From contig NW_011887304.1 of the NCBI RefSeq assembly GCF_000151315.2, positions 665,690 through 729,689 on the forward strand: 64,000 nucleotides of DNA, given 5' to 3'. A program made the translations under genes and the position numbers. Positions 35,346-63,394 of this stretch are shown here, one piece after another. The notes under the pieces are model-generated. The model had not been told where the DNA came from. It saw only the letters and a list, made by a program, of their open reading frames with translations, and ran no database searches. Each line of letters starts with the position of its first letter. Position 1 is the first letter of the stretch. The DNA comes from Capsaspora owczarzaki ATCC 30864 (Eukaryota > Opisthokonta > Filasterea).

Positions 35346-36308
35346 TCACGCCAGGCGCTTGGCGGCGAGGACGAGGTTCTTGAGATAGGAAACCTCCATC
35401 TCGAGCTGGGCCACCTTCTGCTTGAGGTTGATGTTCTCCTCACGCATGCGCTCGGTGCGCTCGTCGAGAATGGACTGCTTCTCGCGCTTCTTGTCGCGGC
35501 ACCGGGCGGCGGCGATCTTGTTGCGGCGACGCTTCTCAATCTTCTCCTCCTCGTCGAGCGGGCGGCGCTTGCGCGGAGGACGCTTGGGCTTGGTGGCGGG
35601 GGCGGAAGCAGGCGACACGGACGACGGCGCGCCAGACGGCAGGGGCGTGGCCGCGACAGAAGAGACAGTCGATGCACGCGAGGCTGCCGCGTGCGTGCCA
35701 AAGTCGAAATCGTAGTCGTCGTCGTCATCGTCGTCCTCCTCGTCAGAGGCTTGGAAGTCATCGTCGTCCTCCGAATCGCGAGCGTGCTTGCGAGCCGAAG
35801 AGGGAATGGGGGCAGGCAGGCAAGAGACGGTGTCGCGCGACATGCGACGTGGCGAGGCCATACCAGAAAGCGCAGTCAGGTCGGCGACGGACGAGACGGT
35901 CGAGATCGAGGCGGAGGTAGGAGCCGGAGCAGGAGGAGCAGTCGAGCAGCTTGCAGGCTCAAACGCCGTGAGGGCGTAGTTGGCAGACTGGCCAAACTCG
36001 AGCCAGAAGGCCAGCGACTCGGAAGGCAAGCACTCGGAGGCATCGGCCGCTGCAGCAGAAGACGAAGCAGCAGCAGAAGCGCCAAGAGACGCAGCCTGGA
36101 CAGACGCAGGCTTGAATTCGCAGTCAAAGACCAGCTTGTCATCAAAGGGCAAAAGCGGGCCAGACAGCGGAGTCGAGAGCGCGCCAGGCACCTTGAGCAG
36201 CTCCTCGAGGATGTGTTCGTCTGAATAGAATGGTTGCTGTGCTTGCTGGGCAAACGCAAAAGCCGCAGGCTTGGCCGAAGCACGCGCAAAGTTGGAAGTG
36301 GGGAACAT
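35346..36308 (-). CDS. bZIP transcription factor, Fos/ATF3-like
   Basis: Intronless, 320 residues from the ATG at 36306-36308. The C-terminal basic region EKRRRNKIAAARCRDKKREK contains the invariant N-x-A-A-x-x-C-R signature in the form found in the Fos/JDP2/ATF3 group, followed by a leucine zipper with heptad-spaced hydrophobics (IL..ERMREEN.NLKQKVAQLEMEVSYLKNLVLA). A basic KPKRPPRKRRP patch before it is a likely nuclear signal. The N-terminal two thirds are Ala/Ser-rich with an acidic run (residues about 176-200) and short hydrophobic-acidic motifs (EHILEELLKVPG, FWLEFG) that could be activation segments. It binds DNA as a dimer, probably at AP-1/CRE-type sites (family knowledge). Confidence 0.9.
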   Translation of the reverse strand: MFPTSNFARASAKPAAFAFAQQAQQPFYSDEHILEELLKVPGALSTPLSGPLLPFDDKLVFDCEFKPASVQAASLGASAAASSSAAAADASECLPSESLAFWLEFGQSANYALTAFEPASCSTAPPAPAPTSASISTVSSVADLTALSGMASPRRMSRDTVSCLPAPIPSSARKHARDSEDDDDFQASDEEDDDDDDDYDFDFGTHAAASRASTVSSVAATPLPSGAPSSVSPASAPATKPKRPPRKRRPLDEEEKIEKRRRNKIAAARCRDKKREKQSILDERTERMREENINLKQKVAQLEMEVSYLKNLVLAAKRLA

Positions 36309-39018: not shown

Positions 39019-42000
39019 TCAAAATTGCATCGGCTGGATGGAGTGCAGCAAATGATTCACCTGCGCATCGCCATCATCATCATCATCGTCGTCGTCGTCA
39101 TCTTCGTCGCCTTCGTCAAACTGCCGGAGATCAAAGTTGTGGGAGGGGCTGGAGGGGTCGAACAAGCGATCCAGGGCGCTCTGTCCGCCGAGGGGGCTGG
39201 CAATCGAGTTTTGCAGCTGCTGCGCAGCTAGGGCGAGCGTCGTGGCCTCCGCGAGGATGGGCTGGCCCGTGCCGGCGGAAAGCGAAACCTGGGCAGAGTT
39301 GGACTTGGAGCCATCGCGGGATCCGTTGCGCGACGACCGCTTGCGACGCGGACGCTTTGTGGGCGGCAGGGCAGCGAGCGCCAGTGCCTCCTGTTCGGAC
39401 ATGCCCTTGTCGCGGAGCTTTTTGATCTTGCGCACGTACTTGAGGCCGCACGAGTTGCACAGCGACGTGTCGCCATCAGGACCCTTGCGCCACTGCGGCG
39501 TCTTGGTCAGGCCGCAGTGCAGGCACACTTTCGAGTTGGGATCGTGGCCGAGCGTGCTCGCGATTGAGCTGCCGGGAACCGTGTTGAAGAGGCCAACGCC
39601 GGCTGCGTCGGACGACGGCGGCTCTGGTTTGACCACTGCCGCGGCGCTTGCCGCAGTGGCATTGGCTTTCGGGCGGCCGCGTGGCTTCGGCTCGACAGGG
39701 GACTGCGTGCCAGGCAGCAGCCGACTCGGGGACGAGAGCCCAGAGCTCGAGCTGGCACTCACCGACACGCTGTGCGAGGCCGCTGGAGAAAGCGACAGAG
39801 GTGACAGTTCGTTTGGTTGGGACAGCCCCGCGTTCGACGGTGCGCCAAGCAAGTGACGATTGTCCAGGAGCTCATGGGGCAGAGAGTCGGAAAATTGCAA
39901 GGACGACGTCGTCTCAGGACTCAAGCTGGGCGAGCCCACGAGCAGGCGCATCAAGTCCACGTCGTGATCAACCGCCATCGTGGCATCGATGCCGTCCAGG
40001 TTGTCGGGGGAGAGGAGCGTTTGCAAGTCGGCCACACCTGCCAACAGGTCGGGATCGAGCCCCAACGGCACCGTTGTCGAGACAGAAATGCTGGGCGAAG
40101 TCACGCCGGTGGACACGTCTGAAGTATGCACTGTCGTCGTTGGGCTGGCAACGCTGCGATGGCTGCTGCCACCGCCACTGACAGACACCGATTGTGGCGA
40201 TATCATGGTGGGGTCGGCGACAAACTTTTCGCCGGTTGCGACAGCACGCGCAGCGGCTTCCAGCATGAGAATGGCGTGCTGGTGGCTTTCGCGTGTGGCC
40301 AGGTCGAGGGCGGTGCGGCCATCGTTGGTCACCGACTCGATTCGCACCTGATAGAGGTAGTCTGTGCAGATGGCCTCCACCACGCTGCAGCAGTTGGTAG
40401 CGGCTGCCCAGTGCAGCGCAGTCCATTCACGTCGATCCTCAATGTTTGGGTTGCAACCGCGCGCCAAAAGCAACAGCGCCACCTCCTCAAACCCGTACTG
40501 GATGGCCAGCATGAGTGGGCTCGTGCCAGAGCTGTCAGAACTGTCCATGTTGGCGCCCTTGTCAAGCAGCTGGCCCACAAGCACAGCGTCTCCAACAGCA
40601 CAGGCGGTGAACAAGGGAGTTTGGCCGTCCATGTCGCGTGCTTCGAGCGGCGCGCTCTTCTCGATGAGGAACATGGCAGCCTCATGCTGGCGGTACTCGC
40701 ACGCAAGATGCAACGCCGTCATTCCTTCTTCGTTGGGCATGCCAATGGAGGCGCCGCGCTCAAGGAGTGCTGCCATCACGTTCAAGTGGCCTGCGGCCGT
40801 GGCGTGCAGGAGGGCGGTTGCGCCTTGCTGGTCTGTTTCGTTGATGATGCGCTCGCGCACATCCTCCTGCTCGAGTAAAACCATGATGGGGTCGAGCAAG
40901 CCTTCGCGAGCCGAGGAGATCAAGACGGCAAAGATCAACACGTCGTCGCGATCCAGCAGGCTCGCCTTCCGCTTGCTGCCGCTCATCAAAGCCATTGCAG
41001 CAGCCACATGGGAACCGACGGTCGCAACCACACCGGCTGCCGAGGCAATGAGAATGCCCACAACGGCGGACGTCTCGCCGGCGCTCAAATTCTCCGTCGA
41101 GGAAAATGTCGTGTTGGAATTGGAGGACGTTGGGGTGGGCGTGGCATAGGAGGGGAATTTTGGGGTAGGCGTTGTTGAGACGAAGGATGCTGGGGGAAGC
41201 GTTGCTGAGAAGGATGTCGGAGTGTCCGAGGCGGCGGAGGTGGCATTGACCGCCGTTGGAGTCGCGAGTGAAGCCGACGGCGAAGGCAGAAATGAAGCAG
41301 ACGCGGATGCTGAGCGAGTGAACTCTGTGTATGTAGATGCAGTAGAAGTGGATGTCGAGCCAAGGAAATCCGTGAACGTGACTGCAGCAGAAGTGGACGG
41401 CGGAGGGGATGAACTTGCGGGAGGGGATGAACTTGCTGGACTGGGCGGGTAGAGCGGGTACGGCCTCTGGAGGGGAAGGTGATGCAGGGGCGGGGTTTGG
41501 CAAACCGAAAGGTCGTCACATTGGTGCAGCTGGTTGAGAAACGTTCCGTAATACTGACTGGGGGATTGGTCGTCCAAGGTGACTCCAGGCAAAACAATGT
41601 GGCCGCTGTAGTCAAACATGGCAGTCATGCTGAAAGGAAACAAGGGGGAGCGGGGATCGAGCTTGACTCGTTGCCACATGTCAAACTGGACGCTGTAATA
41701 CCAGACATCCTGGTTGGTTCCGAGGTCGGAAAAGCCGCCGGCCACAAACATGTCGCGGCCGTTGTTCACCAACACAGCCGAGTGACTGAACAGTGGCGGT
41801 GGCCTGCTTGCTCGGCACGCAGCGGTTTGGCAGAGTTCCGTCCAGCAAGACGACATCAGGTCGAACTTGTAGAGGAGCGCTGACGTTTCAGAACTGCAGT
41901 TGCGGCCGCCAAACACAAATAGTACGGTCTTCTTTGTCGAGTACACGGCGGAGTGCTGAGACACGACTGGGGCTGGCAGGCAGGGAGGCGCGGTCTCGAG

Positions 42001-42870
42001 GTCTATGACTTCCCATGTCGGATCTGCGGCATTGAGGTGGATTGCAAGCGTCGTGTTCGCGTCGCTACAGACTCCAGCGGAGGAAGACATGCCACCAACC
42101 ATGATTGCTGACGCCGGGGGCGAAGAATCGACCACTTGCACAGGCGTCAATGTTGCGCCGACACGGGCAAGCAGCTTCCACGGGTCGCTATGCAGGTCCT
42201 TGAGATGTGGCGGAATTGCTGCTGTCGGATTGCTGTTGAAGCTGGGCTCTGACCAAACCCCAGTTGAAATGCGGTACATGGACATGTTTAACGCAATATC
42301 GCCGCCGCCAACCGCGCCGCCCGCCAACAGGAGATACGCTTCCGTTCCATAGGACAGCATGACCATTGCGGCGAGGTCGCGGCTCGCAGGGACGTTTCCT
42401 GTCTGATTCGGGTGCCGCCACTCTGCAGCAATCCGCGCGGGCAGCGGATCTCCGGTCGTCTTGGAGAAGGTGTCGTTAATGAACAAGTGTCTCAGAGCGG
42501 TGACTGGCGCGCCGTCGTCCACATTCGAGCCGCCATAAATCCATACATGGACATCGTCCACCTCGGCGACTCGCGAGCTGACTGCGGTGGCGCTTTGCTG
42601 TGAGATGGCAATGGGGCTGGTTGGATTCGCATTGCACACGTACTCCACGCTCCATGACAGGGCGTCTGGCTGCGACGACGATGGCGTAGGCGACGCGGTG
42701 GCGGTCTCTTGGGCTGCGGTGAAGGACAGCAAGGACAGCAAGGACAGCAGGCAGAGGAGCACAAGAGCGAGCAGGGTCGGCCGCGCGCGTCTCGGCGTCA
42801 CCCAAGGTCGCTCCAGTGATGCTCTGGCTTTGGCTTTGGCTTGGGCTTTGGCTTGGGCTGCGGCTGCCAT
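39019..42870 (-). CDS. Predicted membrane-tethered transcription factor: kelch ectodomain, TM, ankyrin repeats, GATA finger
   Basis: Intronless, 1283 residues from the ATG at 42868-42870 (context GCACCATGG; the frame runs upstream without another ATG). Residues 33-53 are a signal peptide (LLALVLLCLLSLLSLLSFTAA). Residues about 100-440 are kelch-like: VHVWIYGGSN, YLLLAGGAVGGG, AIMVGGMSS, VLFVFGGRNCSS, DMFVAGGFSDLGTNQDVWYY, with N-glycosylation sites. A Ser/Thr/Pro stalk (460-600) precedes a span at 600-629 followed by SGSKRK, a type I stop-transfer. Inside, residues 640-880 hold about six ankyrin repeats (GATALLHATAAGHLNVMAALLERGA, GQTPLFTACAVGDAVLV, REWTALHWAAA), then a Ser-rich region and, at 1116-1141, a GATA zinc finger: C-x2-C-x18-C-x2-C with TPQWRKGPDG. 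A basic KRPRRKR nuclear signal follows, then an acidic tail. Release by intramembrane cleavage is implied but not shown. Confidence 0.88.
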   Translation of the reverse strand: MAAAAQAKAQAKAKARASLERPWVTPRRARPTLLALVLLCLLSLLSLLSFTAAQETATASPTPSSSQPDALSWSVEYVCNANPTSPIAISQQSATAVSSRVAEVDDVHVWIYGGSNVDDGAPVTALRHLFINDTFSKTTGDPLPARIAAEWRHPNQTGNVPASRDLAAMVMLSYGTEAYLLLAGGAVGGGDIALNMSMYRISTGVWSEPSFNSNPTAAIPPHLKDLHSDPWKLLARVGATLTPVQVVDSSPPASAIMVGGMSSSAGVCSDANTTLAIHLNAADPTWEVIDLETAPPCLPAPVVSQHSAVYSTKKTVLFVFGGRNCSSETSALLYKFDLMSSCWTELCQTAACRASRPPPLFSHSAVLVNNGRDMFVAGGFSDLGTNQDVWYYSVQFDMWQRVKLDPRSPLFPFSMTAMFDYSGHIVLPGVTLDDQSPSQYYGTFLNQLHQCDDLSVCQTPPLHHLPLQRPYPLYPPSPASSSPPASSSPPPSTSAAVTFTDFLGSTSTSTASTYTEFTRSASASASFLPSPSASLATPTAVNATSAASDTPTSFSATLPPASFVSTTPTPKFPSYATPTPTSSNSNTTFSSTENLSAGETSAVVGILIASAAGVVATVGSHVAAAMALMSGSKRKASLLDRDDVLIFAVLISSAREGLLDPIMVLLEQEDVRERIINETDQQGATALLHATAAGHLNVMAALLERGASIGMPNEEGMTALHLACEYRQHEAAMFLIEKSAPLEARDMDGQTPLFTACAVGDAVLVGQLLDKGANMDSSDSSGTSPLMLAIQYGFEEVALLLLARGCNPNIEDRREWTALHWAAATNCCSVVEAICTDYLYQVRIESVTNDGRTALDLATRESHQHAILMLEAAARAVATGEKFVADPTMISPQSVSVSGGGSSHRSVASPTTTVHTSDVSTGVTSPSISVSTTVPLGLDPDLLAGVADLQTLLSPDNLDGIDATMAVDHDVDLMRLLVGSPSLSPETTSSLQFSDSLPHELLDNRHLLGAPSNAGLSQPNELSPLSLSPAASHSVSVSASSSSGLSSPSRLLPGTQSPVEPKPRGRPKANATAASAAAVVKPEPPSSDAAGVGLFNTVPGSSIASTLGHDPNSKVCLHCGLTKTPQWRKGPDGDTSLCNSCGLKYVRKIKKLRDKGMSEQEALALAALPPTKRPRRKRSSRNGSRDGSKSNSAQVSLSAGTGQPILAEATTLALAAQQLQNSIASPLGGQSALDRLFDPSSPSHNFDLRQFDEGDEDDDDDDDDDDGDAQVNHLLHSIQPMQF

Positions 42871-44008: not shown

Positions 44009-47000
44009 ATGGACAATCCATCATTACCACCAGACGCGGATGACAAGAACGCAGCCAACGAAGCGCCGGTTGGCGTTGCTTCTTCAGCCCCGCTCCAACA
44101 TGAGCAGTCCCTCTCGATTAAACCAGTTAGTTCGTACAGTTCCATCATACGGCGCTCCAGAAACACGAGGCAACGCAAAGTTCGCCGACGAGCAAAATCG
44201 CTTCCTACCCATGCGAATCGGCCAGATTCCAACCCGAGCACCGCCCATCCACCTCAACCTGATAATGTCGTTGAGGGTCATGTCAAAGCGAGTGAGCCCT
44301 CCGAGGCTAGTGAAGCGCAGGCGACAGGACCGAGCATGCCGGATCATCAGCACGGCGACCGCGTTCATTTCACTAGCAACAATCAGGACAGTACCACACC
44401 TGCCGCTGTTTGTTTGATGGACGACCCTTCAGTCACCACATCGGCGTCTGTCAGTTACGATTCATCGTCTTATGACGATCTTTCATATTCGTCGGTCAGT
44501 GGCGGGGAGGAAACGCTGGTGGTTGACCTCCCGAGAAACTCGGATGGCATGTCCACCGTCACCCTTCAGCGTCTCTCGCGCCAGGTAACATGGTTTGATA
44601 TTGAGGGCAAATTGGGGTGGGGGGGGAGTGGGGATGGTGCGCTCACGTTTGTATTTTGAACCCTCAGCTCCATCTCAACAAGGAAGACGATCTGCAACTG
44701 GTGCGCAGCCACCACGATCTGCCTGCCATTACACGGATTTTGTCTCGCTGCAAGAATGCCTCCGTCGTGTTTAACTTTACCTTGTCCCCATCGGAGGATT
44801 CGGAGAGTGAACCAACTTCCCTAGCAGGGTCCAGAGCCAGTACGATCCCCGCCATGGCTCCTGGCACGGAAGGCGCTTCGACCGTAGAAGCACCTCATCC
44901 TTCAAGCACCGTGCCAGTGCCACAGAACGAGACACCTCCAACACTGCCGCATGAGGCGGCGGCCGTTCCGACCAATGAAGCGCGAGAATACACTTTGCAA
45001 GTTCGCACAGAGCCCATGCACATCCGCCATCATTCTCAGGCACATCACAAAGCTCGGCATCACCATCGTACTCGACAGGCGCAGCCATCCACATCAGTGC
45101 CAGTCGTTCCACCACCTCCAGAGCGGCGGATGTCAGTGTTTCGTCCGCCACAGTATCTTGCCAGCATCGACCGAGCTGCCGTCACAGATGTCGGGTCACG
45201 TCATCCCGACGAGTGTCCCAATGAGCCACATACCGAAGAATCTGCAGTAGACATCAGCGCTCCCCCTCTACCGGCCGGCACTCACGGTCGTTCGGCAACT
45301 TGGCTCGGTACAGTTGGCTCGAATGTTTTACTTTTGTGTTCCTAGCCCGCTTTGTTTCTTTTGCTCACGACGTGCACTTGTCACTGGGATGCAATCCAAA
45401 AGAGCTCTTTTTCGATCTGTTCTTTGTGGCAGGCATCATCGAGCTGTATCTGGACGACAGGGTGGATGCCGCAGCCCTCGGAACATTTGTTGCATTGTTT
45501 ACTCCAATGTGGTGGATTTGGTCTTCGTCCTCCTTTTACGCCAACCGATTCGACACTGACGATGTCATCCATCGGTGTTTGATGCTGATTCAACTCATTT
45601 CCCTTGGTACGTGTGATCTGTACTTCTGAGAGTGCGGGAGATTTTGGGTTTTGCTAACCTCCATCGGATTACCGCAGTCATCCTGGTTAACAACCTACAC
45701 TACGCACTCGGGTCCACTTCGGACGTATTCACGATTGCCTACATGTGCAACGATATCGTCATGCTCATCAAGTACTTGCGAGGTAAAGGCGCGGTTGGCA
45801 ATCTACAGCGGGAAATCAAAACTCTTTCGTTCAGACTCTTACGACCCACCTTGAATGTGCACCTTCTAGTGTACTACTATGTGCCGCGTGCAAGATCGGC
45901 GGCATGCGCGATTGTGATGGCCAATACCATCTCGATTGCCTTGTGGGGCGCGTCGCTTGCTGTTCCAACTCCTTGGCGAGTGATACTGTGGCTAGCAGGC
46001 ATTGCAGCTGAATGCACAGCGCATATTATCAAGCGAGGGCGCCAGGTACGGATGAGGATTGTCACTTGCCACGACTGTTTTGGGTCGACTATGACTGGTT
46101 CTGGACAATTTTCTCGACCCTGCAGATTCCCTTCAATGCCTCCCACCTTCCTGATCGATTTGGCATTTTCACCATTGTCGTTCTTGGAGAGCAAATCATC
46201 TCGGCAACCGAGGGGAGCACGATTGCCGGATTTTCTGCCACGATTGGGTTGGTTGCATGCCTTTTTTTTCTTTTCGTACTTGGGATTTGTCGCGACGCAC
46301 TTCTCTCCGATGCTCACAACCAATCTCACCTGTCATTTGAATTCTGCCATGGATCTCACCTCGCAGAGTTGCGCTGGGCTTTGCTGTATTGTTCTCCTTC
46401 TCGTTGTGGTGGATGTACTTTGACGCCTTCGACGGCCAAGTTGTCGGTCACGCCACGCACTTGTCGCCGCTGTGGCTGTATGCGCACTATCCGTTGCACA
46501 CCTCGCTGGCGTTCACGGGCGTTCTTCTTGCGCCGTTGGTTGCGCGAGCTGCAGATCCGCTCAACAACTCGGCCGTCGTGCTTTACTTTCTCGGTGGCAG
46601 CAGCGTGGTCTTTCTTTGCAACGCTGCCATCACGTTCATCAACTCGTTTGCCAGAAAGGGTAAAGGGGGGGGTTTATCAAAACGAATGCTTTTGAGTGTT
46701 TGTTGTGGGCCTTGACCAACTTGTTTTCGCGCCCCCCTCTTCAGATCCATACTTGAATACCATCATTCTCTCCCGGGTCGTCATTGCGATCGTCGTTGCG
46801 CTCATATGCGCGGGTCCTCCGAGTGAATTTGTGACGCTCGTGGTTGTTGGCTCTTTGGCAGCCACTCAAGGTTGGTGTTGGGAATCTTGCTTTCTCGCCA
46901 AGCTCTCTCTGATCCTGACTTTTCTTCCTTTGCTGCTATTAGTCGTTGTTGATGTGCTGGTGCAGCACCTGCGCTACTTGCGCTTCACCAAACTGCCTGC

Positions 47001-49134: not shown

Positions 49135-51634
49135 ATGGAGTTGCTGGAGAAGCTGTCGTCCCTCTTGGACCTGGAGGGGACCCGAGAGATGACTGCGAAT
49201 CAGCTCGAAGTGTATGAACAAGTCAAGCGTGCGAGTGGGAGGCTCGAGTAAGTGAGCGCCGAATGTATTGAAAAGCGTACCAGCGCGTGACACTGACGAG
49301 ATGATGCCGGTGGGCAGTCTGAACAACAACATGATCGACGATGACGAAGCAAAGGTGCTTGCGAGAGCACTCAAAGTGAACATGGCAGGGAACACGCCAG
49401 TGTCTGGGATCAAGTAAGTCGTCTCACTTTGACTGATGAGTGCGAGTGGTTGATTCAGAAGAGTGCTCACTGATGGAGGGGCGGGGGGCGAATGGACAGT
49501 TTGAACAGGAATAGGTTTGGCGATGTCGGAGCAAAGGCCATTGCTGAGGCTCTCCAAGAGAACAAGAGGGTGACTTGGCTCGAGTACGTCGTCTCACTAT
49601 GATTGATGCATGCGAGTGGGTGATTCGGAAGAGAGTGGCTCACTGATAGCGAGGACGGACAGTCTGAGCGTTAACATGATTGGCGACACTGGGGCGCTGG
49701 CGATTGCTGAGACACTGAAAGTGAACAGGCTTGTGAATCACGTCCGGTAGGGCATATGCATGTAAATGGCTGGCTTCAGCAGATGACATTCAGAGTGGCT
49801 CACTGGTGGAGGGACGGCCAGTTTGAATGATAATCAGATTGGCGATGCCGGAGCGCTGGCGATTGCTGAGGTTCTCAAAGTGAACAAGAAGCTGAGATAC
49901 CTTTCGTAAGTGTTGATTGCTTCGAGATGTGTGGAATGTCGGAAGACTCATAACGGATGCAATCCACCGACAACAATAGTTTGAGCAACAACTTCATTAC
50001 CATCGTTGGAATTAACGCATTGTGGCAAACAGGCAACACCATTTGTAAACTGGAGTAAGCCTTTGCAAGCTGATCGGTTCTTGCATGATAGTGATGCAAA
50101 TCCGACCAGTCACTCACTCACGTGCTTTGGAAAACTTTATAGCTTCTCTGGCCAACGTGTCCCATCGCCTGCCATGTTGGCAGCTCGTGCCGCAGCGAAC
50201 GATCAGCCCCAACCTTCCGTCAATCCTGCATCTGAGATTCAGCAATTGCGCTCCGAGCTCGCTTCCAAACAACAGGAGCTCACCACCAAAAATCAAGAGC
50301 TCGCTTCCAAAAATCAAGAGCTCGCTTCCAAAGCTCAGGAGCTCGCTACCAAAGATGAGGAGCTCGCTGCCCAAGACCAAGAACTCGCTGCGCAAGATGA
50401 GGAACTCGCTGCCAAAGACCAAGAGCTCGCTGCCAAAGATCAGCAATTGCGCTCCAAGCTGGCCGCCAAAGATCAGAAATTCAACTCCAGACTGAATGCC
50501 AGAGATCAACAATCACGCTCCGAGCTTGCTGCCAAAGACAACGAACTTCAGCAACTTCGCTCAAATCTCGCCGGCAAAGACAAGGAGCTCGCGACTCAAA
50601 GGCAGGAGCTGAAAAAGCTTCGCTCCGATCTCGCTGCCAAAGAGCAGAGCCTCGCTACCAAAGAGCAGAACCTTGCTGCCAAGGATCGTGAACTCAAGTC
50701 AGCTCTTGATCGGATTGATGTTTTTGAGCGCAATCAGCCCGCCGTTGGATCTGCATCGAACTTTGACGGTCCCATACCTCAAGTGCCTCTCGCAACTCTT
50801 GTCGCCGCCACGAGCAATTTCGCCGCTGATTCTCTGCTCGGCAAAGGAGCATTTGGTTGCGTGTACGGCGCCAGTTTGCCTGGGCCTTCTGTTGCCGTGG
50901 CCATCAAGAAGCTGTCCGCCGAATCCAAGCAAGGCGCTGCCGAATTCAAGGCGGAACTGGCCTCTTTGTCCAAATTCCGTCACGCAAACATCATTGCCAT
51001 TCTGTCATATGCAGAAGAAGGCGACGAGCAATGTTTGGTCTACGAGTTCATGCCAAACGGATCAGTTCGCGATTGCTTGAATCTGAAGAACAACGCGACC
51101 CCGTTGACTTGGTCCCAGCGTCACCGCATTGCGGCTGATGTCTCCCGCGGCATGCACTACGTCCAGACAGCCTTCCCCGATCATGCATTGTTTCATCTCG
51201 ACCTCAAGACCGACAATGTCCTTTTGGACGCGCATTTCAATGCAAAAGTGTCTGACTTTGGCTTGGTTCGGATCGCTACACACCTTGATGAGCAAAGCTA
51301 CCTTCGCACATCGAACGTTCAAGGCACAGCTGCTTACATGTGTCCTGAGTTTTTTGAGAAAGGCCGCATGACCGTCAAGACGGATGTCTACGCCTTTGGC
51401 ATGATTTTGCTGGAATTGCTGACTGCGGAGAAACCTGGCACCAAGCTGAAAACTGATACGCGGAAGGCGGTGAAAAACCAGAAATTCTCTGACATGCTGG
51501 ACTCGACCCTCAAGCCAACCGAGGCAGAGCTCCAGAACGTCAGCGATTTTGTCACTCTTGCGCTCGAGTGCCTTGATGAAGCTGCTGATGATCGCCCCTC
51601 CTTTGGTCGCATCCTTGCGACATTGGATCCTTGA
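49135..51634 (+). CDS. Cytosolic LRR - coiled-coil - RLK/Pelle-like kinase, copy 1
   Basis: Seven exons: 49135-49247, 49318-49413, 49500-49583, 49663-49746, 49822-49905, 49980-50054 and 50143-51634, about 675 residues. Residues 1-37 are a helical leader. Exons 2-6 each encode one leucine-rich repeat of ribonuclease-inhibitor/NLR type (core LNxNxIGDxGAxAIAExLKVN). Residues 208-376 are a coiled coil of near-exact heptads (QELAAKD). Residues about 390-670 are a kinase of the RLK/Pelle/IRAK class: LATLVAATSNFAADSLLGKGAFGCVYG, VAIKKL (Lys about 434), catalytic loop FHLDLKTDNVLLD (Asp about 532), DFGL (about 550), MCPEFF for APE. The Arg of HRD is Leu, so it is a non-RD kinase. No signal peptide or span: an intracellular sensor-kinase layout. 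First of three tandem copies. Confidence 0.85.
49718..50311 (+). repeat. Segmental duplication, copy shared with 56063-56656
   Basis: About 594 bases spanning LRR exons 4-6, their introns and the start of the kinase exon. By eye I found no difference from 56063-56656 (constant offset 6345), in introns as well as exons, whereas surrounding LRR exons of the two copies differ. Confidence 0.8.
50240..50470 (+). repeat. 21-bp coding minisatellite (heptad coiled coil), copy 1
   Basis: About ten tandem 21-base units of the type GAGCTCGCTGCCAAAGACCA, each encoding one heptad (E-L-A-A-K-D-Q). Unit number differs between the three kinase genes, as expected of slippage. Confidence 0.75.
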
Positions 51635-51938: not shown

Positions 51939-54857
51939 ATGCCTCATTTTTGGAGGACTGAGAGTCAACGCGAATTGAAGCGCAGCATGAGTGAGAATCA
52001 GCGCAAGTGGTATGACAAGGTCAAGCATGCGAGTGGCAAGCTCGAGTAAGGAAACAACAAGAGAGCTTGGATTGGAGTACTTTGGCTGCGCAGCTGACGA
52101 AACCGCCGAACAGACTGATCCGGCAAAACATTCGCGAAGATGACGTGCAGGCCATTGCCGAAGCACTCAAAGCGAACACGTCATTGAGAGCGCTCGAGTA
52201 AGGCATCTTACTTTGAGCAATGCATGGAAGCGGGTGGCTTCGGCGGAGGGTAATGAAGAGTGGCTTACTGCTGGGCAGTCTGAGGGAGAATCAGATTGGC
52301 GACGCGGGAGCTCAGGCCATTGCTGAGGCACTCAAACTGAACACGACGCTGACCGAGCTTGGGTAAGTCATCTGGCGTTGAGTGATGAATGAACGTGAAT
52401 GGTTTCAGCTCACTGATAATGGGGATGGACACAGGTTGGGCCAAAATCAGATTGGTGATGCTGGAGCTCACGCGATTGCTGAAACACTCAAATCTAACAC
52501 GATGCTGGCTAAACTCAGGTAAGTCAGCTCACCTTTGCTGATGCTCTTGAGTGGATAATTTTCGACAGAAGGCATCCAGAGTGCTCACCGATGGAAGGGA
52601 CGGGCAGTTTGCGCCGGAATCAGATTGGCGATGCGGGAGCTCAGGCCATTGCTGAGGCGCTGAGAGTGAACACAACACTGACCGAGCTCGGGTCAGTTAA
52701 ATCACTTGTACAGATGCATTTGAGAGGGAGGGGGAATTTTCAGAAGAGGGCATTACGAGTGCTCATTGGTGGCTGGGACGGACAGTTTTGGCTGCAATCA
52801 TGTTGGCGACCCTGGAGCGAAGGCAATTGCTGAAGCATTCAAAGTGAACACGACAATGACTGGACTCGGGTAAATCGCCTCTCGTTTGTTGATGCATTCG
52901 AGCGGGTGATCAGTAGAGGATGTTCAAAGTGCTCACTTGATGGAGACAGTCTGAGTGAGAATGCCATTGGGGATGCTGGTGCGCAAGCAGTTGCCGAGGC
53001 ACTGAAAGTCAATACGGCGCTGAATTGGCTCTTGTAAGTCGTCTTGTTTGTACTGATGCATGTGAGTGGGTAGTCCAAGAGAGACCTATAAGCTTTCAGA
53101 GTGCTCACTGCTGGACGGTACGGACAGTCTGCACCAGAATCAGATTGGCGATGCCGGAGCGCGGGCGATTGCGGAAGTCCTCAAAGTGAACAAGAAGCTG
53201 AGATACCTTTAGTAAATGTTGATTGCTTAAGATGTGTGGAATGTCGGAAGACTCATAACAGGTGCAATCTACCGACAACAACAGTCTGAGCAACAACTTT
53301 ATCACCAACGTTGGAATTACCGCATTGAGGCAAACAGGCAATACCATTTGTCAACTGGAGTAAGCCTTTGCAAGCTGTCAGTTCTTGCATGACGCTAAAT
53401 CCGAACAGGCACTCACTTGCTTTGGAAAAAAACACACAAAATTGTAGTTTCTGTGGCCATTTCTTGAAAACCGAAGTGTCGCGCTGAGTGCAGCACGACT
53501 AGCAGCAGACGTTCAGGCGCAAGCGTCGGTCTATCAAGAAACATGAACTCGCTTCACTAAGCTTCCGAGCTCGCTACCAAAGATGAGGAGCTCGCTGCCC
53601 CAAGACCAAGAACTCGCTGCGCAAGATGAGGAACTCGCCGCCAAAGACCAAGAGCTCGCTGCCAAAGATCAGCAATTGCGCTCCAAGCTGGCCGCCAAAG
53701 ATCAGAAATTCAACTCCAGACTGGCTGCCAGAGATCAACAATCACGCTCCGAGCTTGCTGCCAAAGACAAAGAACTTCAGCAACTTCGCTCAAATCTCGC
53801 CGTTAAAGACAAGGAGCTCGCTACTAAAAGGCAGGAGCTGAAAAAGCTTCGCTCCGATCTCGCTGCCAAAGAGCAGAGCCTCGCTACCAAAGAGCAGAAC
53901 CTTGCTGCCAAGGATCGTGAACTCAAGTCAGCTCTTGATCGGATTGATGTTTTTGAGCGCAATCAGCCCGCCGTTGGATCTTTTTCGAGCTTTGACGGTC
54001 CCATACCTCAAGTGCCTCTCGCAACTCTTGTCGTCGCCACGAGCAATTTTGCCGCTGATTCTCTGCTCGGCAAAGGAGCATTTGGTTGCGTGTATGGCAC
54101 CAGATTGCCTGGCCCTCGTGTTGCCATCAAGAGGCTGTCGACTGACTCCAAGCAAGGCGCTGCCGAGTTCAAAGCCGAATTGGACTCTTTGTCAAAGTTC
54201 CGCCACGCAAACATTATTGCCATTCTGTCATATGCAGAAGAAGGCGACGAACGATGCTTAGTTTATGAATTCATGCCAAATGGTTCGGTGCGTGATCGCT
54301 TGGATCGCAAGAACCATACGCCTCCGCTGATCTGGTCTCAGCGGCACCGCATTGCGGCTGATGTCTCCCGCGGCATGCACTACGTCCAGACAGCCTTCCC
54401 TGACCACACGCTGTTCCATCTGGACCTGAAGACCGACAATGTGCTTTTGGACGCGTACTTTAACGCAAAAGTGTCTGATTTTGGCTTGGTTCGTATTGCG
54501 ACACACCTTGATGAGCAAAGCTACCAGCGCACCCAGCACGTTCAGGGCACAAAGGTGTACATGTGTCCCGAGTTCTTTGCGGAGGGCAAAATGACCATCA
54601 AGACGGATGTCCACTCGTTCGGCATGATTCTACTCGAGCTTGTGACCGCTGCCAAGCCTGGGCCCAGACTGAAAGCAGAGACGCGGAAAGCTGTGAAAAC
54701 CCAGAAAATCAACGAGATGCTGGACTCGGCACTCAGGCCCACCAGAGCAGATCGCAATCGCATCAAGAAGACAGTCACGCTCGCGCTCGAGTGTCTTGAT
54801 GATATTGCTGACGATCGCCCCTCCTTTGGACAGCTCATTGCTACATTGGATCCTTGA
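51939..54857 (+). CDS. LRR - coiled-coil - RLK/Pelle-like kinase, copy 2 (possibly broken at the LRR/coil junction)
   Basis: Exon 1 51939-52045; seven 84-nt LRR exons 52114-52197, 52279-52362, 52435-52518, 52608-52691, 52786-52869, 52950-53033 and 53128-53211; a 75-nt exon 53285-53359; then the coil/kinase region to 54857. All LRR exons and the kinase (from about 53583) are open and keep every catalytic motif (GKGAFGCVYG, VAIKRL, HLDLKTDN, DFGL, MCPEFF). However, with the acceptor used by copies 1 and 3 (about 53446) the exon meets a stop within 13 codons, and a C is inserted in GCTGCCCCAAGAC at about 53596 relative to copy 1. An in-frame rescue is possible through an acceptor at about 53568 (TTCCGAG|C). 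So it is either re-spliced, split into two transcripts, or a recent pseudogene. Confidence 0.62.
53575..53720 (+). repeat. 21-bp coding minisatellite, copy 2
   Basis: About five to six units of the same heptad-encoding repeat as in copy 1, fewer than in copy 1, followed by the less regular coil shared with copy 1. Confidence 0.65.
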
Positions 54858-55163: not shown

Positions 55164-57907
55164 ATGCGTTCGTATCTTTCATCCTTCTGGACAACTGAGA
55201 GTCAGAGCGAGGTGACTCGCAGCATGAGTGAGAATCAGCGCAAGTGGTATGACAAGGTCAAGCATGCGAGTCGGACGCTCGAGTAAGGAAACAACAAGAG
55301 AGCTTGGATTGGAGTACTTTGGCTGCGCAGCTGACGAATCCGCCGAACAGACTGATCCAGCAAAACATTCGCGAAGATGACGTGCAGGCCATTGCTGAAG
55401 CACTCAAGGTGAACACGTCATTGAAAGCGCTCGAGTAAGGCATCTCACTTTGATCAATGCATAGAAGCGGGTGGCTTCGGCAGAGGGTAATGAAGAGTGG
55501 CTTACTGCTGGACAGTCTGAGGGTGAATCAGATTGGCGATGCGGGAGCTCAGGCCATTGCTGAGGCACTGAAAGTGAACACGACGCTGACTCACCTCTAG
55601 TAAGGCATATCAATGTTAATGATGCTTGTGATTGGGCTCAAGGACTTCCGCCAAGAGTAGTTCAGAGCGGCTCACTGAGGCGGGAACGGGCAGTCTGGAC
55701 GAGTGTCATATTGGGGTTGTTGGAGCGCAGGCCATTGCTGAGGCACTCAAAGTGAACACGGTGCTGACTGAGATCTAGTAAGGCATCTGAGCGAGTGATT
55801 TGAGAGGGCATTCAGACGGCTGACTGGCGGACGGGCAGCTTGCGTGACAATCAGATTGGCGATGCGGGAGCACAAGCAATCGCTGAGACACTCAAGGTGA
55901 ACACCATTTTGACTGCGCTCGCGTAAGTCACCTGACTTGTGCTGGTGCTTGTGAGTGGGTGATCTTGCTGAAGGCGGTGAAGAGTGCTCACTGATGGAGG
56001 CGGACAGTCTGGGCAAGAATCATATTAGCGTCGCTGGAGCGCAGGCGATTGCTGAAGCACTCAAAGTGAACAGGCTTGTGAATCACGTCCGGTAGGGCAT
56101 ATGCATGTAAATGGCTGGCTTCAGCAGATGACATTCAGAGTGGCTCACTGGTGGAGGGACGGCCAGTTTGAATGATAATCAGATTGGCGATGCCGGAGCG
56201 CTGGCGATTGCTGAGGTTCTCAAAGTGAACAAGAAGCTGAGATACCTTTCGTAAGTGTTGATTGCTTCGAGATGTGTGGAATGTCGGAAGACTCATAACG
56301 GATGCAATCCACCGACAACAATAGTTTGAGCAACAACTTCATTACCATCGTTGGAATTAACGCATTGTGGCAAACAGGCAACACCATTTGTAAACTGGAG
56401 TAAGCCTTTGCAAGCTGATCGGTTCTTGCATGATAGTGATGCAAATCCGACCAGTCACTCACTCACGTGCTTTGGAAAACTTTATAGCTTCTCTGGCCAA
56501 CGTGTCCCATCGCCTGCCATGTTGGCAGCTCGTGCCGCAGCGAACGATCAGCCCCAACCTTCCGTCAATCCTGCATCTGAGATTCAGCAATTGCGCTCCG
56601 AGCTCGCTTCCAAACAACAGGAGCTCACCACCAAAAATCAAGAGCTCGCTTCCAAAGCTCAGGAGCTCGCTGCCAAAGATGACGAACTCGCTGCACTAGA
56701 CCAAGAGCTCGCTGCCAATGATCAGCAATTGCGCTCCAAGCTGGCCGCCAAAAACAACGAGCTGCATCAACTTCGCTCAAATCTCGCTCACAAAAAGCAG
56801 GAGCTCGCTAACAAAACGCAGGAGCTCGCTACCAAAAGTCGCGACAAAAGGCGAGAGCTGCAAAAGCTTCGCTCCGATCTCGCTGCCAAAGAGCAGAGCC
56901 TCGCTATCAAAGATCAGGCGCTTGCTGCCAGAGATCAGGAGCTTGCAACCAAGGATCTTGAGCTCAAGTCAGCTCTTGATCGGATCGACGCACTCGAGAG
57001 CGCCCAACACGCCGTTGAACCTTTCTCAAACTTTGACAAACCAATCCCTCAAGTTCCTCTCGCAACGCTTGTCGCCGCCACGAACAATTTCGCCGCTGAT
57101 TCTCTGCTCGGCAAAGGAGCATTTGGTTGCGTGTACGGCGCCAATTTGCCTGGGCCTTCTGTTGCTGTAGCCATCAAGAAGCTGTCCGCCGAATCCAAGC
57201 AAGGCGCTGCCGAATTCAAGGCGGAACTGGCCTCTTTGTCCAAATTCCGTCACGCAAACATCATTGCCATTCTGTCCTATGCAGAGGAAGGCGACGAGCG
57301 ATGCCTGGTGTACGAGTTCATGCCAAACGGATCGGTTCGTGATCGCTTGGATCGCAAGAGCAACACGCCTCCGCTGACCTGGTCTCAACGCCATGGCATT
57401 GCCGCTGATGTCGCCCGCGGCATGCACTACGTCCAGACAGCCTTCCCCGATCATGCATTGTTTCATCTCGACCTCAAGACGGACAACGTTCTCCTGGACG
57501 CATACTTCAACGCAAAAGTATCTGATTTTGGTCTCGTTCGCGCTGCCCAACACCTCGATGATAAGAGCTACCTTCGCACGCAGAACGTTCAAGGCACTGT
57601 TGCTTACATGTGTCCCGACTTCCTCGATGAAGGTCGCATGACCATCAAGACCGACGTTTATGCATTTGGCATGATTCTGTTGGAATTGCTGACTGCAGTC
57701 AAACCTGGCAACCGCCTGAAAACAGACTCGCGAAAGGCTCTGAAAAGCCAGAAATTCCTTGACATGCTGGACTCGGCGGCGCTCAAGCCAACCGAAGCAG
57801 AGCGCCAGAGCGTCAGCGAGCTTGTAGTGCTTGCGCTGGAGTGTCTTGAGGATGCTGCTGACGATCGCCCGTCATTTGGACAGCTCATTGCTACATTGGA
57901 TCCTTGA
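55164..57907 (+). CDS. Cytosolic LRR - coiled-coil - RLK/Pelle-like kinase, copy 3
   Basis: Nine exons: 55164-55282, 55351-55434, 55516-55599, 55694-55777, 55839-55922, 56008-56091, 56167-56250, 56325-56399 and 56488-57907, about 705 residues. The leader ends MSENQRKWYDKVKHAS, as in copy 2. Six full 28-residue LRRs and one short one, each on its own phase-2 exon. The coil has fewer heptads than copy 1 and its own spacer (HKKQELANKTQELATKSRDKRRELQ). The kinase keeps GKGAFGCVYG, VAIKKL, HLDLKTDNVLLD, DFGL and MCPDFL; the last has Asp where copies 1 and 2 have Glu of APE. Exons 56167 onward up to 56656 duplicate copy 1 exactly, while the coil end (DALESAQHAVEPF) is unlike copies 1 and 2 (DVFERNQPAVGS). 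Confidence 0.86.
56063..56656 (+). repeat. Segmental duplication, copy shared with 49718-50311
   Basis: Same block as at 49718-50311, in the same orientation, 6345 bases downstream. Confidence 0.8.
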
Positions 57908-59197: not shown

Positions 59198-62100
59198 ATG
59201 CCTTCGCCGTCGCTCCGACCTCAACAATGGCGACAACGAACAGTCAGCACGAATGCTTTATTCGCGTCGCTGGTACTCGTCGTTGCCGCAGGCTGGATGC
59301 ACAGTTTGCCATCTGCATTCGCCTACGAGAACGCTTGTAACGTTTGCAACTGCTATGCATTTACCGTGGAGCGCTGCGACCCCATGCTGGATTACATCCC
59401 ACTCAACATTCCAGCGGCAGCAACCGAGCTGTACGGAGCGAAAACTGAGGCAGATTGGCTCGCATCTAGTTGAGCACCAACAAAAAAAAAAGTGTGACTG
59501 ATTGGACCATGATTGGATTTCAAACAGAGACTTCTCCGACACCATGATTACATCGATTGACTCTTCGTCATTTGGCGCGTCTATTCTGGGCTCTGTGCGC
59601 AAACTGTAAGAAGGCCCGGCATGCTTTCCTGCGTGTTTATTCAATGTACGATTTCTGACGTGAAGATTGCCGTTTAAATTGCTTTCCACGACGTGTAGCC
59701 GAATCGCAAACGCGCAGCTCGCCAACTTGCCAGTCAACACATTTTCACATCTCCCAAACCTGGAATTGTTGTACGCAGTATAGTGCTCTCGCCACAACAA
59801 CAAGAACTGGATTTGGTTTGTTTGACTCAAAGTCGTCAAAACGTGTGGTTTGGTTTGCACAGAGATCTTTCAGACAACCAGTGGCTCACAATCTTTCCTT
59901 CCGGTGCATTGCAAAGCAACACCAACCTCAAGGAACTGTACGTGTGCAACGTCCTTCTTGGCTATTCTGATTGTTGTGGTTCGGTTCCACCATCCGCTCA
60001 ACTTTTTTGACCTGCTTGACAGACGATTGGCACAGACGGGCATCTCATCTCTGCAGTCCAACTCGCTCAGTGTCTTTCCGCTGCTGAAAGTTGTGTAAGC
60101 AAGCTGAGCTTTTGTTCCCATACTTTGCGTGTGACAAACTGATCTTGCGCACAATTCCATCGGAAACCAAACCACGACAAACGCAGTCAACTATCGTACC
60201 TGCAGATTACGACTTTGCCCACCGGTCTGCTGTCCGGGTTGAGCCAGTTAGAGGAATTGTGCGTGTCCATGCGATCGGCAGTGTGTGTCTGTCTACATTT
60301 GACTCGAAACCTGAATTCATGTTACAATCGTTGCCATGTTGCACAGGTACCTGGACAGTATTGACATTTCCGTAATTCCACCTGGCTTTTTCGATTCCAA
60401 CACGCAGTTAACGGTTCTGTAAGCGCAGTCGTTTGCTGCAAAGTGTCGACCTTCCTCGTGCAGCTGCTCACACACACGTGCAAAATCCTCCTCGCAGTGA
60501 CATTTCCTACTCGAAATTAACGACCGTGCCGACAACACAGCTGAACGTTCTGGCGAATCTTGAGCTCTTGTAAAAAATCAACGTTTGACTTGCACCTTGA
60601 TGCGCATTTGCTGATTCTCGACGGCCCGACACAGAGACCTCTCAAGTTCTAGAATCGCCACCATGCCTTCAACCAGTCTCACCTTGCCCGCGTTAAAAAC
60701 ATTGTAAAACTGGCTTGCAGTCCAACCGTATTTTCCCGCTGTATCAACCCTCTCACTCTGGAATCGTCATGTAGATACTTGCAGAACAACGACTTGACTG
60801 CCATTCCACCAGGCGTCTTTTCACAGCTGGCTTCACTCGAAATTCTGTGAGTAGTCTAGATGCGTGTTACTGTGGTGCATCTGGCGCACGTCGCTCTCAT
60901 GGCTCTGCGCATGGGCGTTTTGTATCAGCTTTCTCCATGAGAACAGCCTCACCACTCTGCCAGCAGGTTCCTTCCTGGGCTTGCAACATCTGGAAACCTA
61001 TGAGTTTGCCCCAAATTCTTTTACGGTTGCGCCTCCCAGCACTTACGGCTCTCCGACTGATCCACAAAGTATGCCCAGCAGTTCGGAAGTCTAGGCAGTT
61101 GCCGTGCGAGTTTTGCTCACTGTGCCCTTCTCGCAGAATGCCATTACCAATGCGCCACCTGTTACGACTCTGGATCCAACCAATGCTGTTCAACAAACTG
61201 CGTCTCCTGCACGGTCACAGGATGTTTACTTTGCGCATCGGGAACAACTTGGAGTGATGGTAGTTGTTGGTTGCAGGATGCCGCCTCTTCCGTGTCCTCA
61301 GCTTCCCGCGTGTCCGTGGCTTCTGTTGCGAGCGCATCTGCCTCCAAAGCAAGCGTTTCAGTCCAATCGGCATTGTCCGCAGCGTCGATGGAATCCTCCG
61401 CGTCCAAGGCGTCAATTGTTTCGGCAACGTCAGCCGCTACGGTTTCTGCGCGATCGGCAACGTCAGCCGCTACGGTTTCTGCAAATTCGGCAGCATCCGT
61501 TATTGAAGCATCTGCGGCATCCGTCGTTTCTGCTGCATCTGGTTTCTCTGCGTCTGTTGTCTCTGCGGCATCCGTTGCTTCAGTATCGTCCGCATCTGCC
61601 GCCTCTGCCGCCTCTGTCACATCTGCACAGTCGGTCACATCGGTCCAATCCAGCGCGTCAGTGGCATCCGTTGCTTTAGTGTCGTCTGCTTCTGCGGCGT
61701 CTGTGGCTTCTGCAGCATCGGCAAATTCTCTGATCTCTGTCGACTTTGTGGTCTCTGTCGACTCTGTGGTCTCTGTCGCATCCGTTCGATCGATTGGCGG
61801 TGGATCCACCACCGCCACTCCTGCGCCATCTGCAGTCCAATCTCCAACTCACGTGCTCTCATCTGCGCGTGACGGATCTTCAGCCGCCAGTGTGGCTTCG
61901 TCCTCGTCTGCTTCTTTGGCTCTCCCCCCTCAAAGCGACCAAGCTTCGTCATCATCCTCTGCCATTGTCGGTGCTGCTGTTGGTATTGTGCTGCTCGTTC
62001 TGATCGCAGTCGTCGCGTTTGTGTTGTATCGTCGTCACAAGCGCCGCCTGCAGCCTTTCGGCTCGCGCATTTCCTTGCAAAAGTCTGACTCGACGCTGGT

Positions 62101-63394
62101 GCCGATGCAAGCGGTCGGTTTCCCCTCAAGCCAATCCCAATCCCAGAGCGAGGTGTACGCTTCGCCAAATCAGGTCGAATCCGCGTACGCGACTGTGGGC
62201 CAACGCGTGTACAGCAATGATCCTCCGAAGCCAAGCCCCGAGTATGCATACGCCACTAGCCCGGGACGCATCTACAGTGATATTGTCACGGAAACAACAT
62301 CACTCAGACAAGGTCTTGTGCTTGGCGCCAAACTAGGCTCGGGCGCATTTGGGGTTGTTCTCCGTGGCCAGTTACCATCCAATCTCGTGCCTAAAGATGC
62401 CAAGTACCTGCTGGCGGACGAAAGACAGCCGCACCTGGACGTCGCAGTCAAAACCATTCCATCTGACGCAGATCCTAAATCTCGGCGCGAGTTTATCGAA
62501 GAGGCCCGCATGATGGCGCGGTTCGACAATCCCAATGTCGTGCGCGCCATCTGCTCCTTGCTCGAAGCAGAGCCTCTCCTGTGCGTGCTGGAACTGATGC
62601 CGTTCGGCGATTTGCGAGGTGTGTTGCAAAAGTCGATCAAAGTCCAAGTGTCGTGGACGCGTGCAGAGTCGGCACACGCCCTGGCTCAAGTCGCTCGCGG
62701 ACTCGACTACCTCGAGCAAATTCGCTTTGTTCACCGTGACATTGCGGCGCGGAACTGCTTGGTCGGCGCGAATCTCGCCGTCAAAATTTCCGATTTTGGG
62801 CTGTCGCGCGCCATAGCCGAGGAGAGTGACTACTACCGCATGGAGACCAAAGGTCGTCTTCCAGTGAAGGTAATTGTGTTATCGGGGGTTTGCAGAGCTT
62901 GCAGGGAGGGTTACTGTCGAAGAGTATGAGAACAACCCAACATTGAGGGTTTGCTTGTCTACAGTGGATGGCTCCTGAGTGTCTATTGTATCGCAAGTTT
63001 ACGCATCAAAGTGATGTCTGGGCATTTGGTGTTCTTGCTTGTAAGTGAAAATGGGGGGGGGATTCGGACATTGGCGTTTTTTCGCTGTTTTGCTTGACTT
63101 GTTGCCTGGGATTTTTTTAATTTTTTTTGGTTTTGTTCCTCTGCAGGGGAGGTTTACTCTTACGGCGCATCGCCTTATGGAAACCAAAAGGGTCCGGAGA
63201 TTCTCGCGCAGGTGGAAGGTGGCTTCCGACTGCAAAAACCTGCAGGATGCGCCGACGTTGACTTTGAGCAAGTTTTCAACTGCTGGAATCGTGAGCCATT
63301 GTCCCGCCCGTCCTTTGCCGCATTGAGTGCGTACTTTGCGCAAGTAGCTTTGAACACGCCCGTGCGTGATATTGGTTTACTTGTTTCGTCATGA
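59198..63394 (+). CDS. LRR receptor tyrosine kinase
   Basis: Fourteen exons: 59198-59430, 59528-59605, 59699-59770, 59863-59937, 60023-60094, 60187-60258, 60347-60418, 60498-60569, 60635-60703, 60775-60846, 60929-61068, 61137-62869, 62965-63040 and 63147-63394, about 1027 residues. Signal peptide ([15 protein letters not shown]), a Cys cap ([11 protein letters not shown]), about ten 24-residue LRRs, most on a single 69-75-nt exon with phase-2 borders, a Cys-rich module ([21 protein letters not shown]), a Ser/Ala/Val stalk of about 180 residues, a span ([23 protein letters not shown]), and a juxtamembrane with repeated Tyr motifs (VYASP, AYATV, VYSND, IYSD). The kinase has [25 protein letters not shown] (tyrosine-kinase form), DFGLSR, activation-loop YY and LPVKWMAPECL. 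A cell-surface receptor; ligand unknown. Confidence 0.9.

Follow-up and report, generated by a model that had tools for sequence, protein, structure and literature searches.

SREBP, ATF6/CREB3 and MYRF each carry a DNA-binding domain and a membrane span on one polypeptide. They are proteins of the endoplasmic reticulum or Golgi which sense lipid or stress, and MYRF cleaves itself. As far as we know, none of them contains a GATA finger or ankyrin repeats, and none has kelch outside. The Notch receptor of animals and choanoflagellates consists of an outside module built of EGF and LNR repeats, one span and ankyrin repeats, and it has a nuclear function after cleavage, together with a CSL partner. 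The artificial receptor synNotch keeps the Notch core, and a DNA-binding transcription factor forms its inside part. Here we describe a gene of Capsaspora owczarzaki ATCC 30864 that lies in a stretch of 64,000 nucleotides (contig NW_011887304.1, positions 665,690 to 729,689 of the forward strand), which we call the window and to which the positions below refer unless a contig is named. Its product would have, in this order, a signal, a kelch ectodomain, a span, ankyrin repeats and a GATA zinc finger. As in SREBP, ATF6/CREB3 and MYRF, the DNA-binding domain and a span, here predicted by hydropathy, would belong to one polypeptide. The protein and Notch have in common an outside module, ankyrin repeats on the inside and, as predicted here, a single span between the two; a nuclear function after cleavage is presumably common to both as well. 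The protein, however, has kelch in place of EGF and LNR, it has a DNA-binding domain of its own, and in principle it would not need a CSL partner. Like synNotch, it would be a receptor in which the transcription factor that binds DNA makes up the inside part. Judged from its sequence, the protein is real, well-formed and unusual, a predicted membrane-bound transcription factor with a Notch-like receptor layout. Our best explanation, to which we give a probability of about 0.55, is that it is a membrane-tethered transcription factor, i.e., a kelch receptor released by cleavage, whose ankyrin-GATA part regulates genes.

The coding frame runs on the minus strand, as do all parts of the protein, and occupies positions 39019..42870. 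It starts with the first ATG at 42870, whose Kozak context is strong (GCCCGCACC ATG G), ends with a TGA stop at 39019-39021 and comprises 1283 codons without an internal stop. In full, the open frame has 1374 codons, a length with a chance probability of about 2e-17 under an independent-base model with local composition, while the remaining five frames of the same 3852 bases contain 19-38 stops each. No stop separates the kelch half from the ankyrin-GATA half, which share one frame. Strong donor-like words (GTRAGT, GTAAG, GTGAG, GTATG) were found in this open reading frame (ORF) only at codons 109 and 1037, and the looser pattern GTRWG, scanned over codons 441-625, added only codon 613, inside the span. 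T-runs of five or more are absent from the ORF, whereas its flanks carry runs of 6-13, and three presenilin introns of the same genome, inferred from the gaps between pieces of the Pfam match, have T-runs of 14, 19 and 9 (genome searches covered the 27.46-Mb assembly of 29 contigs). Because of this difference from the presenilin introns an in-frame intron is unlikely. The composition of the ORF is coding-like nearly throughout, with third-position GC falling to 0.47 at codons 481-540, in the stalk. An intron or a gene border within the stalk is unlikely, and kelch, span, ankyrin repeats and GATA finger are probably carried by one transcript. The coordinates and strand of the frame in the first-pass annotation were correct.

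The domain identification rests on Pfam matches which are all above the curated cut-offs and follow each other along the protein in the order kelch, ankyrin, GATA. The ectodomain is a kelch-type beta-propeller at about residues 105-440 (41551..42558; outer borders set by eye). It is matched by PF24681 with 89.3 bits (cut-off 50; best stretch 255-431) and by PF24981, the kelch family of attractin/LZTR1 type, with 58.9 bits (cut-off 50; residues 149-404). Six GG/PG blade motifs lie at residues 113, 184, 259, 321, 378 and 429, and the nearest match among solved kelch structures is LZTR1 (59.5 bits). The propeller is thus of the same type as in the attractin/LZTR1 proteins, which are not known to have ankyrin repeats or a GATA finger. 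The ankyrin repeats, about seven by eye, occupy residues 655-875 (40246..40908; PF12796, 111.4 bits in three stretches, best 655-745).

The GATA zinc finger, C1116-C1141 (39448..39525), is matched by PF00320 with 49.1 bits (residues 1116-1146). Its zinc ligands C1116, C1119, C1138 and C1141 form the complete C-x2-C-x18-C-x2-C pattern announced in the first-pass annotation, which falls within the spacing C-x2-C-x17-20-C-x2-C given for GATA factors. A WR core and CNxCGL are marks of GATA fingers, and both are present. Among solved structures the finger matches plant GATA18 with 38.7 bits in a single stretch, GATA-3 with 41.7 bits when both of its fingers are added together, and also GATA-1. The core PQWRKGPDG..SLCN.CGL is common to this finger and to the GATA ORFs L002 and L003 of the same genome. 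A built-in DNA-binding domain, as claimed earlier, is thus real by sequence. GATA factors bind WGATAR sites, and this finger probably binds DNA. Other elements of the inside part were read from the sequence or its composition. They are a leucine/aspartate-rich segment at residues 930-980 (39931..40083), a possible activation domain; an AT-hook-like KPRGRPK at residues 1062-1068 (39667..39687), without a Pfam match at E up to 1; a basic cluster KRPRRKR at residues 1172-1178 (39337..39357), a likely nuclear localisation signal; and an acidic tail at residues 1252-1268 (39067..39117).

The membrane topology rests on two hydropathy scales, of which the insertion-energy scale was used without positional weights. 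The N-terminal signal (42712..42870) has a basic n-region and the hydrophobic core LLALVLLCLLSLLSLLSFT at residues 33-51, which is the strongest hydrophobic segment of the protein (Kyte-Doolittle mean 2.63; sum -3.66 on the insertion-energy scale). A candidate cleavage site, judged by eye, follows residue 53. The kelch part is connected with the membrane by a Ser/Thr/Pro-rich stalk at residues 466-600 (41071..41475), in which Ser and Thr make up 46% of block 501-550 and likewise of block 551-600, and which has three N-glycosylation sequons. Eight sequons lie before the span versus three after it. The single span, recognized by hydropathy only, covers residues 602-629 (40984..41067) and is followed by SGSKRK. 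Its residues 602-620 are the second strongest hydrophobic segment of the protein (mean 2.07), and 33 residues, 600-632, are free of Asp, Glu, Lys and Arg, with KRK coming next. The signal, the uncharged span followed by KRK, the stalk and the sequon distribution together favour a type I membrane protein with kelch outside and ankyrin-GATA inside, probably located at the cell surface. Pfam matches, hydropathy segments and KRPRRKR support the order signal, kelch, span, ankyrin, GATA, basic cluster described in the first-pass annotation.

How close is this protein to Notch? The published Notch diagnostics are LNR, EGF and ANK, and a Notch-like gene has been reported in Monosiga (PMC2770060). Ankyrin repeats inside are present here (PF12796), while no EGF family was found among the 16 Pfam matches at E up to 1, and no LNR repeat (PF00066) was found in the protein, the seven LNR matches of the genome lying elsewhere. 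Behind its span, Notch also carries a RAM motif with WxP; no such motif was found here, as tryptophan is absent from the stretch between residues 400 and 815. Without EGF, LNR and RAM motif the protein is not a Notch, though it may work like one. In comparison with solved structures, the ankyrin repeats are best matched by ankyrin-1/2, NOMPC and designed repeats (best 60 of 457 matches).

The same genome has two other ORFs with a Notch-like layout. One of them, L041 (contig C10, about 719062-723381, minus strand), encodes 1440 amino acids with a signal, four LNR repeats (PF00066, 111 bits), one span, ankyrin repeats and a long, low-complexity, acidic tail; Pfam found no EGF repeats in it, and no DNA-binding domain was found. 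Notch chains are among the best 60 of 421 solved matches of its ankyrin repeats. The other, L054 (contig C1, about 1117766-1120117 and beyond), is a second LNR-span-ankyrin ORF, visible in part, whose ankyrin match continues at C1:1120325 and in which no clear signal follows the first Met. Both share with our protein an outside module, a span and ankyrin repeats, but have LNR instead of kelch, and their ankyrin repeats are only distantly like those described here. The repeats of our protein match L041 with 45.5 bits only, and in this genome 11 other ankyrin matches score higher. Descent from Notch by duplication was considered and is not supported, given this low score and the lack of Notch likeness in the repeats among the best 60 of 457 matches. 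The protein thus resembles Notch in layout, and nothing seen here points to a common origin. On the other hand, L041 and L054 indicate that the layout of outside module, span and ankyrin repeats was used more than once in this genome.

All four gamma-secretase subunits, presenilin, nicastrin, Aph-1 and PEN-2, also have matches above the Pfam cut-offs in the genome, and reprolysin_2 has five matches. Three short matches to LAG1/CSL (CSL-like exons) and two to the Runt domain (160.7 and 105.8 bits) were found as well. The matches to gamma-secretase subunits, the reprolysin-type proteases and the two LNR-span-ankyrin ORFs support a Notch-like way of working, so that the comparison with Notch made by the first-pass annotation is strengthened as regards layout and not as regards descent.

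In the mechanism that we propose, one gene would give one type I membrane protein with kelch outside and with ankyrin repeats, an activation-like linker and the GATA finger inside. The kelch propeller would bind an outside cue, which may be another cell, matrix or a prey surface. A sheddase would then cut the stalk and gamma-secretase the span, setting free an ankyrin-GATA fragment. The basic cluster would bring this fragment into the nucleus, where it would act on GATA sites itself and regulate genes without a further DNA-binding partner. Ligand binding and regulation of GATA sites are suggested by the identity of the domains; shedding, gamma-secretase cleavage and nuclear import are proposed by analogy. 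A more specific and clearly more tentative idea is that the protein could be a natural counterpart of synNotch, a gamma-secretase-released receptor which is itself a sequence-specific transcription factor and which belongs, with at least two more receptors of this single-celled relative of animals, to the type outside module, span and ankyrin.

Several observations weigh against this proposal. The span suggested earlier near residues 600-629 is found by hydropathy, but its residues 602-620 sum to +1.67, an unfavourable value, on the insertion-energy scale. It is only moderately hydrophobic, rich in alanine and glycine, includes one histidine and is weaker (2.07) than the spans of L041 (2.92) and L054 (2.32). 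The sequons exceed expectation without significance, both in the kelch part (5 versus 2.6, P about 0.10) and in the stalk (3 versus 1.4, P about 0.14). The predicted structure of the kelch part, made from a single sequence without relatives, had a mean pLDDT (predicted local distance difference test) of 33 and was not used. No recognisable cleavage motif was found in the protein sequence. Notch is absent among the best 60 of 457 solved ankyrin matches, and the repeats are generic. Finally, the weak protein searches described below turned up no relative of the same architecture that would point to selection keeping the parts together.

Four other explanations were considered. The gene may make two products, the full receptor and a soluble ankyrin-GATA factor arising from an internal promoter or from a start at residue 626, in which case the receptor's own nuclear role might be small. 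Met626 lies where the span ends on its inward side, and its Kozak context is strong (GCTGCTGCA ATG G); a product started there would be ankyrin-GATA with KRK near its beginning. However, seven further internal ATGs have an equally strong context (residues 169, 257, 663, 699, 747 and 775, all within the kelch or ankyrin part, and 965), and we regard this explanation as unlikely, though the most serious of the alternatives. Somewhat less probable still is that the two hydrophobic segments serve as neither signal nor span, and that the protein is a kelch-ankyrin-GATA factor, soluble in the nucleus or cytosol, whose linker is rich in alanine. The Ala/Gly-rich composition of the second segment (2.07) and its unfavourable insertion value (+1.67) would suit such a protein, as would the unusually long n-region of 32 residues before the first segment; moreover, many kelch proteins are cytosolic, and the kelch ORF L031 of this genome is taken as such. 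Yet the first segment is very hydrophobic on both scales (2.63; -3.66), a stretch of 33 residues that lacks Asp, Glu, Lys and Arg and then runs into KRK is typical of a span, and the stalk and sequons suit an outside domain, whereas L031 has only one sequon in 568 amino acids.

In a third alternative the receptor stays in the membrane and its GATA-like finger binds protein and not DNA. Some GATA fingers are indeed protein-binding modules, and there is a single finger here; but the tail also has the AT-hook-like motif, the cluster resembling a nuclear signal and the leucine-rich and acidic segments, and the core of the finger is the one common to L002 and L003, so that we think this improbable. 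An assembly error or a chance fusion of two genes is the most improbable of all. A single sequence of the locus was examined, which leaves some place for it, while the junction is in frame and without a stop, the composition is coding-like nearly throughout and the contig is large (955 kb).

The distribution of the parts in the genome was also traced. GATA matches number nine at eight loci, the query included. In L001, L006 and L007 the GATA ORF runs off the edge of the locus, and L008, a frame of 43 amino acids, was left out. In a motif scan confined to the ORFs, exons outside them not being included, the ankyrin motif was absent from all six other readable GATA ORFs, so no other GATA ORF with the same layout was seen; L006 has a marginal hydrophobic segment (1.64) before its finger. 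The ectodomain has at least three further kelch matches, all weak (at most 34 bits), and with such scores among the matches listed its recent duplication is not supported. Two neighbouring kelch ORFs, L014 and L015 (C1:2437468-2445198), resemble surface proteins of attractin/MEGF8 type, with CUB, EGF and kelch by eye. A genome search with the ankyrin-GATA half yielded 67 matches, counting the query. Twenty-two regions (L031-L052, of which L031 is the kelch place) were read, and 16 ORFs in them had at least two ankyrin motifs by a motif scan which misses degenerate repeats, for example in L032. Only two of these 16, L041 and L033, have a segment with hydropathy of at least 1.9 between the first Met and the first ankyrin motif, and that of L033 includes Glu and Arg. 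As far as seen, the combination of kelch, span, ankyrin and GATA is thus single in this genome.

Outside this genome, two protein database searches at E up to 0.001 gave no relative, but the candidates were filled by ankyrin and probably by low-complexity stalk words, and the protein itself was not listed either. The species or this gene model thus seems to be missing from the database, so that the absence of relatives is weakly tested. A third search returned ankyrin proteins almost exclusively and a single kelch protein. The literature searched, including several lists of the best 10-20 papers, describes no kelch-span-ankyrin-GATA protein in the parts available, and a 2026 screen for membrane-bound transcriptional regulators (PMC13294678) mentions neither GATA, kelch nor Capsaspora in its main text. 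The earlier claim that no family with this order has been described is not contradicted by these sources, though the protein searches bear on it weakly.

Other genes of the window were noted as well. Close to the receptor gene lies a bZIP transcription factor ORF (35346-36308, minus strand), and a piece of an LtrA-like membrane protein gene, probably multi-exon, is found at 45300-45629 on the plus strand (profile 4-76 of 356). Four plus-strand ORFs with PF07714, the tyrosine and serine/threonine kinase domain, form a local cluster (50006-51634, 53583-54857, 56351-57907 and 61271-62929). Weak DDE_3 and HTH_32 matches in an ORF at 1742-3421, also on the plus strand, indicate a likely transposase or its remnant. 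Rfam gave no match at the gathering score within the window.

If the receptor works as proposed, a single polypeptide would convert a signal at the surface into transcription, which is the shortest pathway possible. Its kelch sensor, cleavable core and DNA-binding output would also make a parts list for receptor engineering, and the host would be a relative of animals, Capsaspora, in which transfection and genome editing have been reported (PMC6001378, PMC9170242). Together with the LNR-span-ankyrin ORFs the protein may represent a premetazoan Notch-like class. Notch would then be one domain-shuffled survivor of cleavable receptors with a nuclear part rather than a unique invention.

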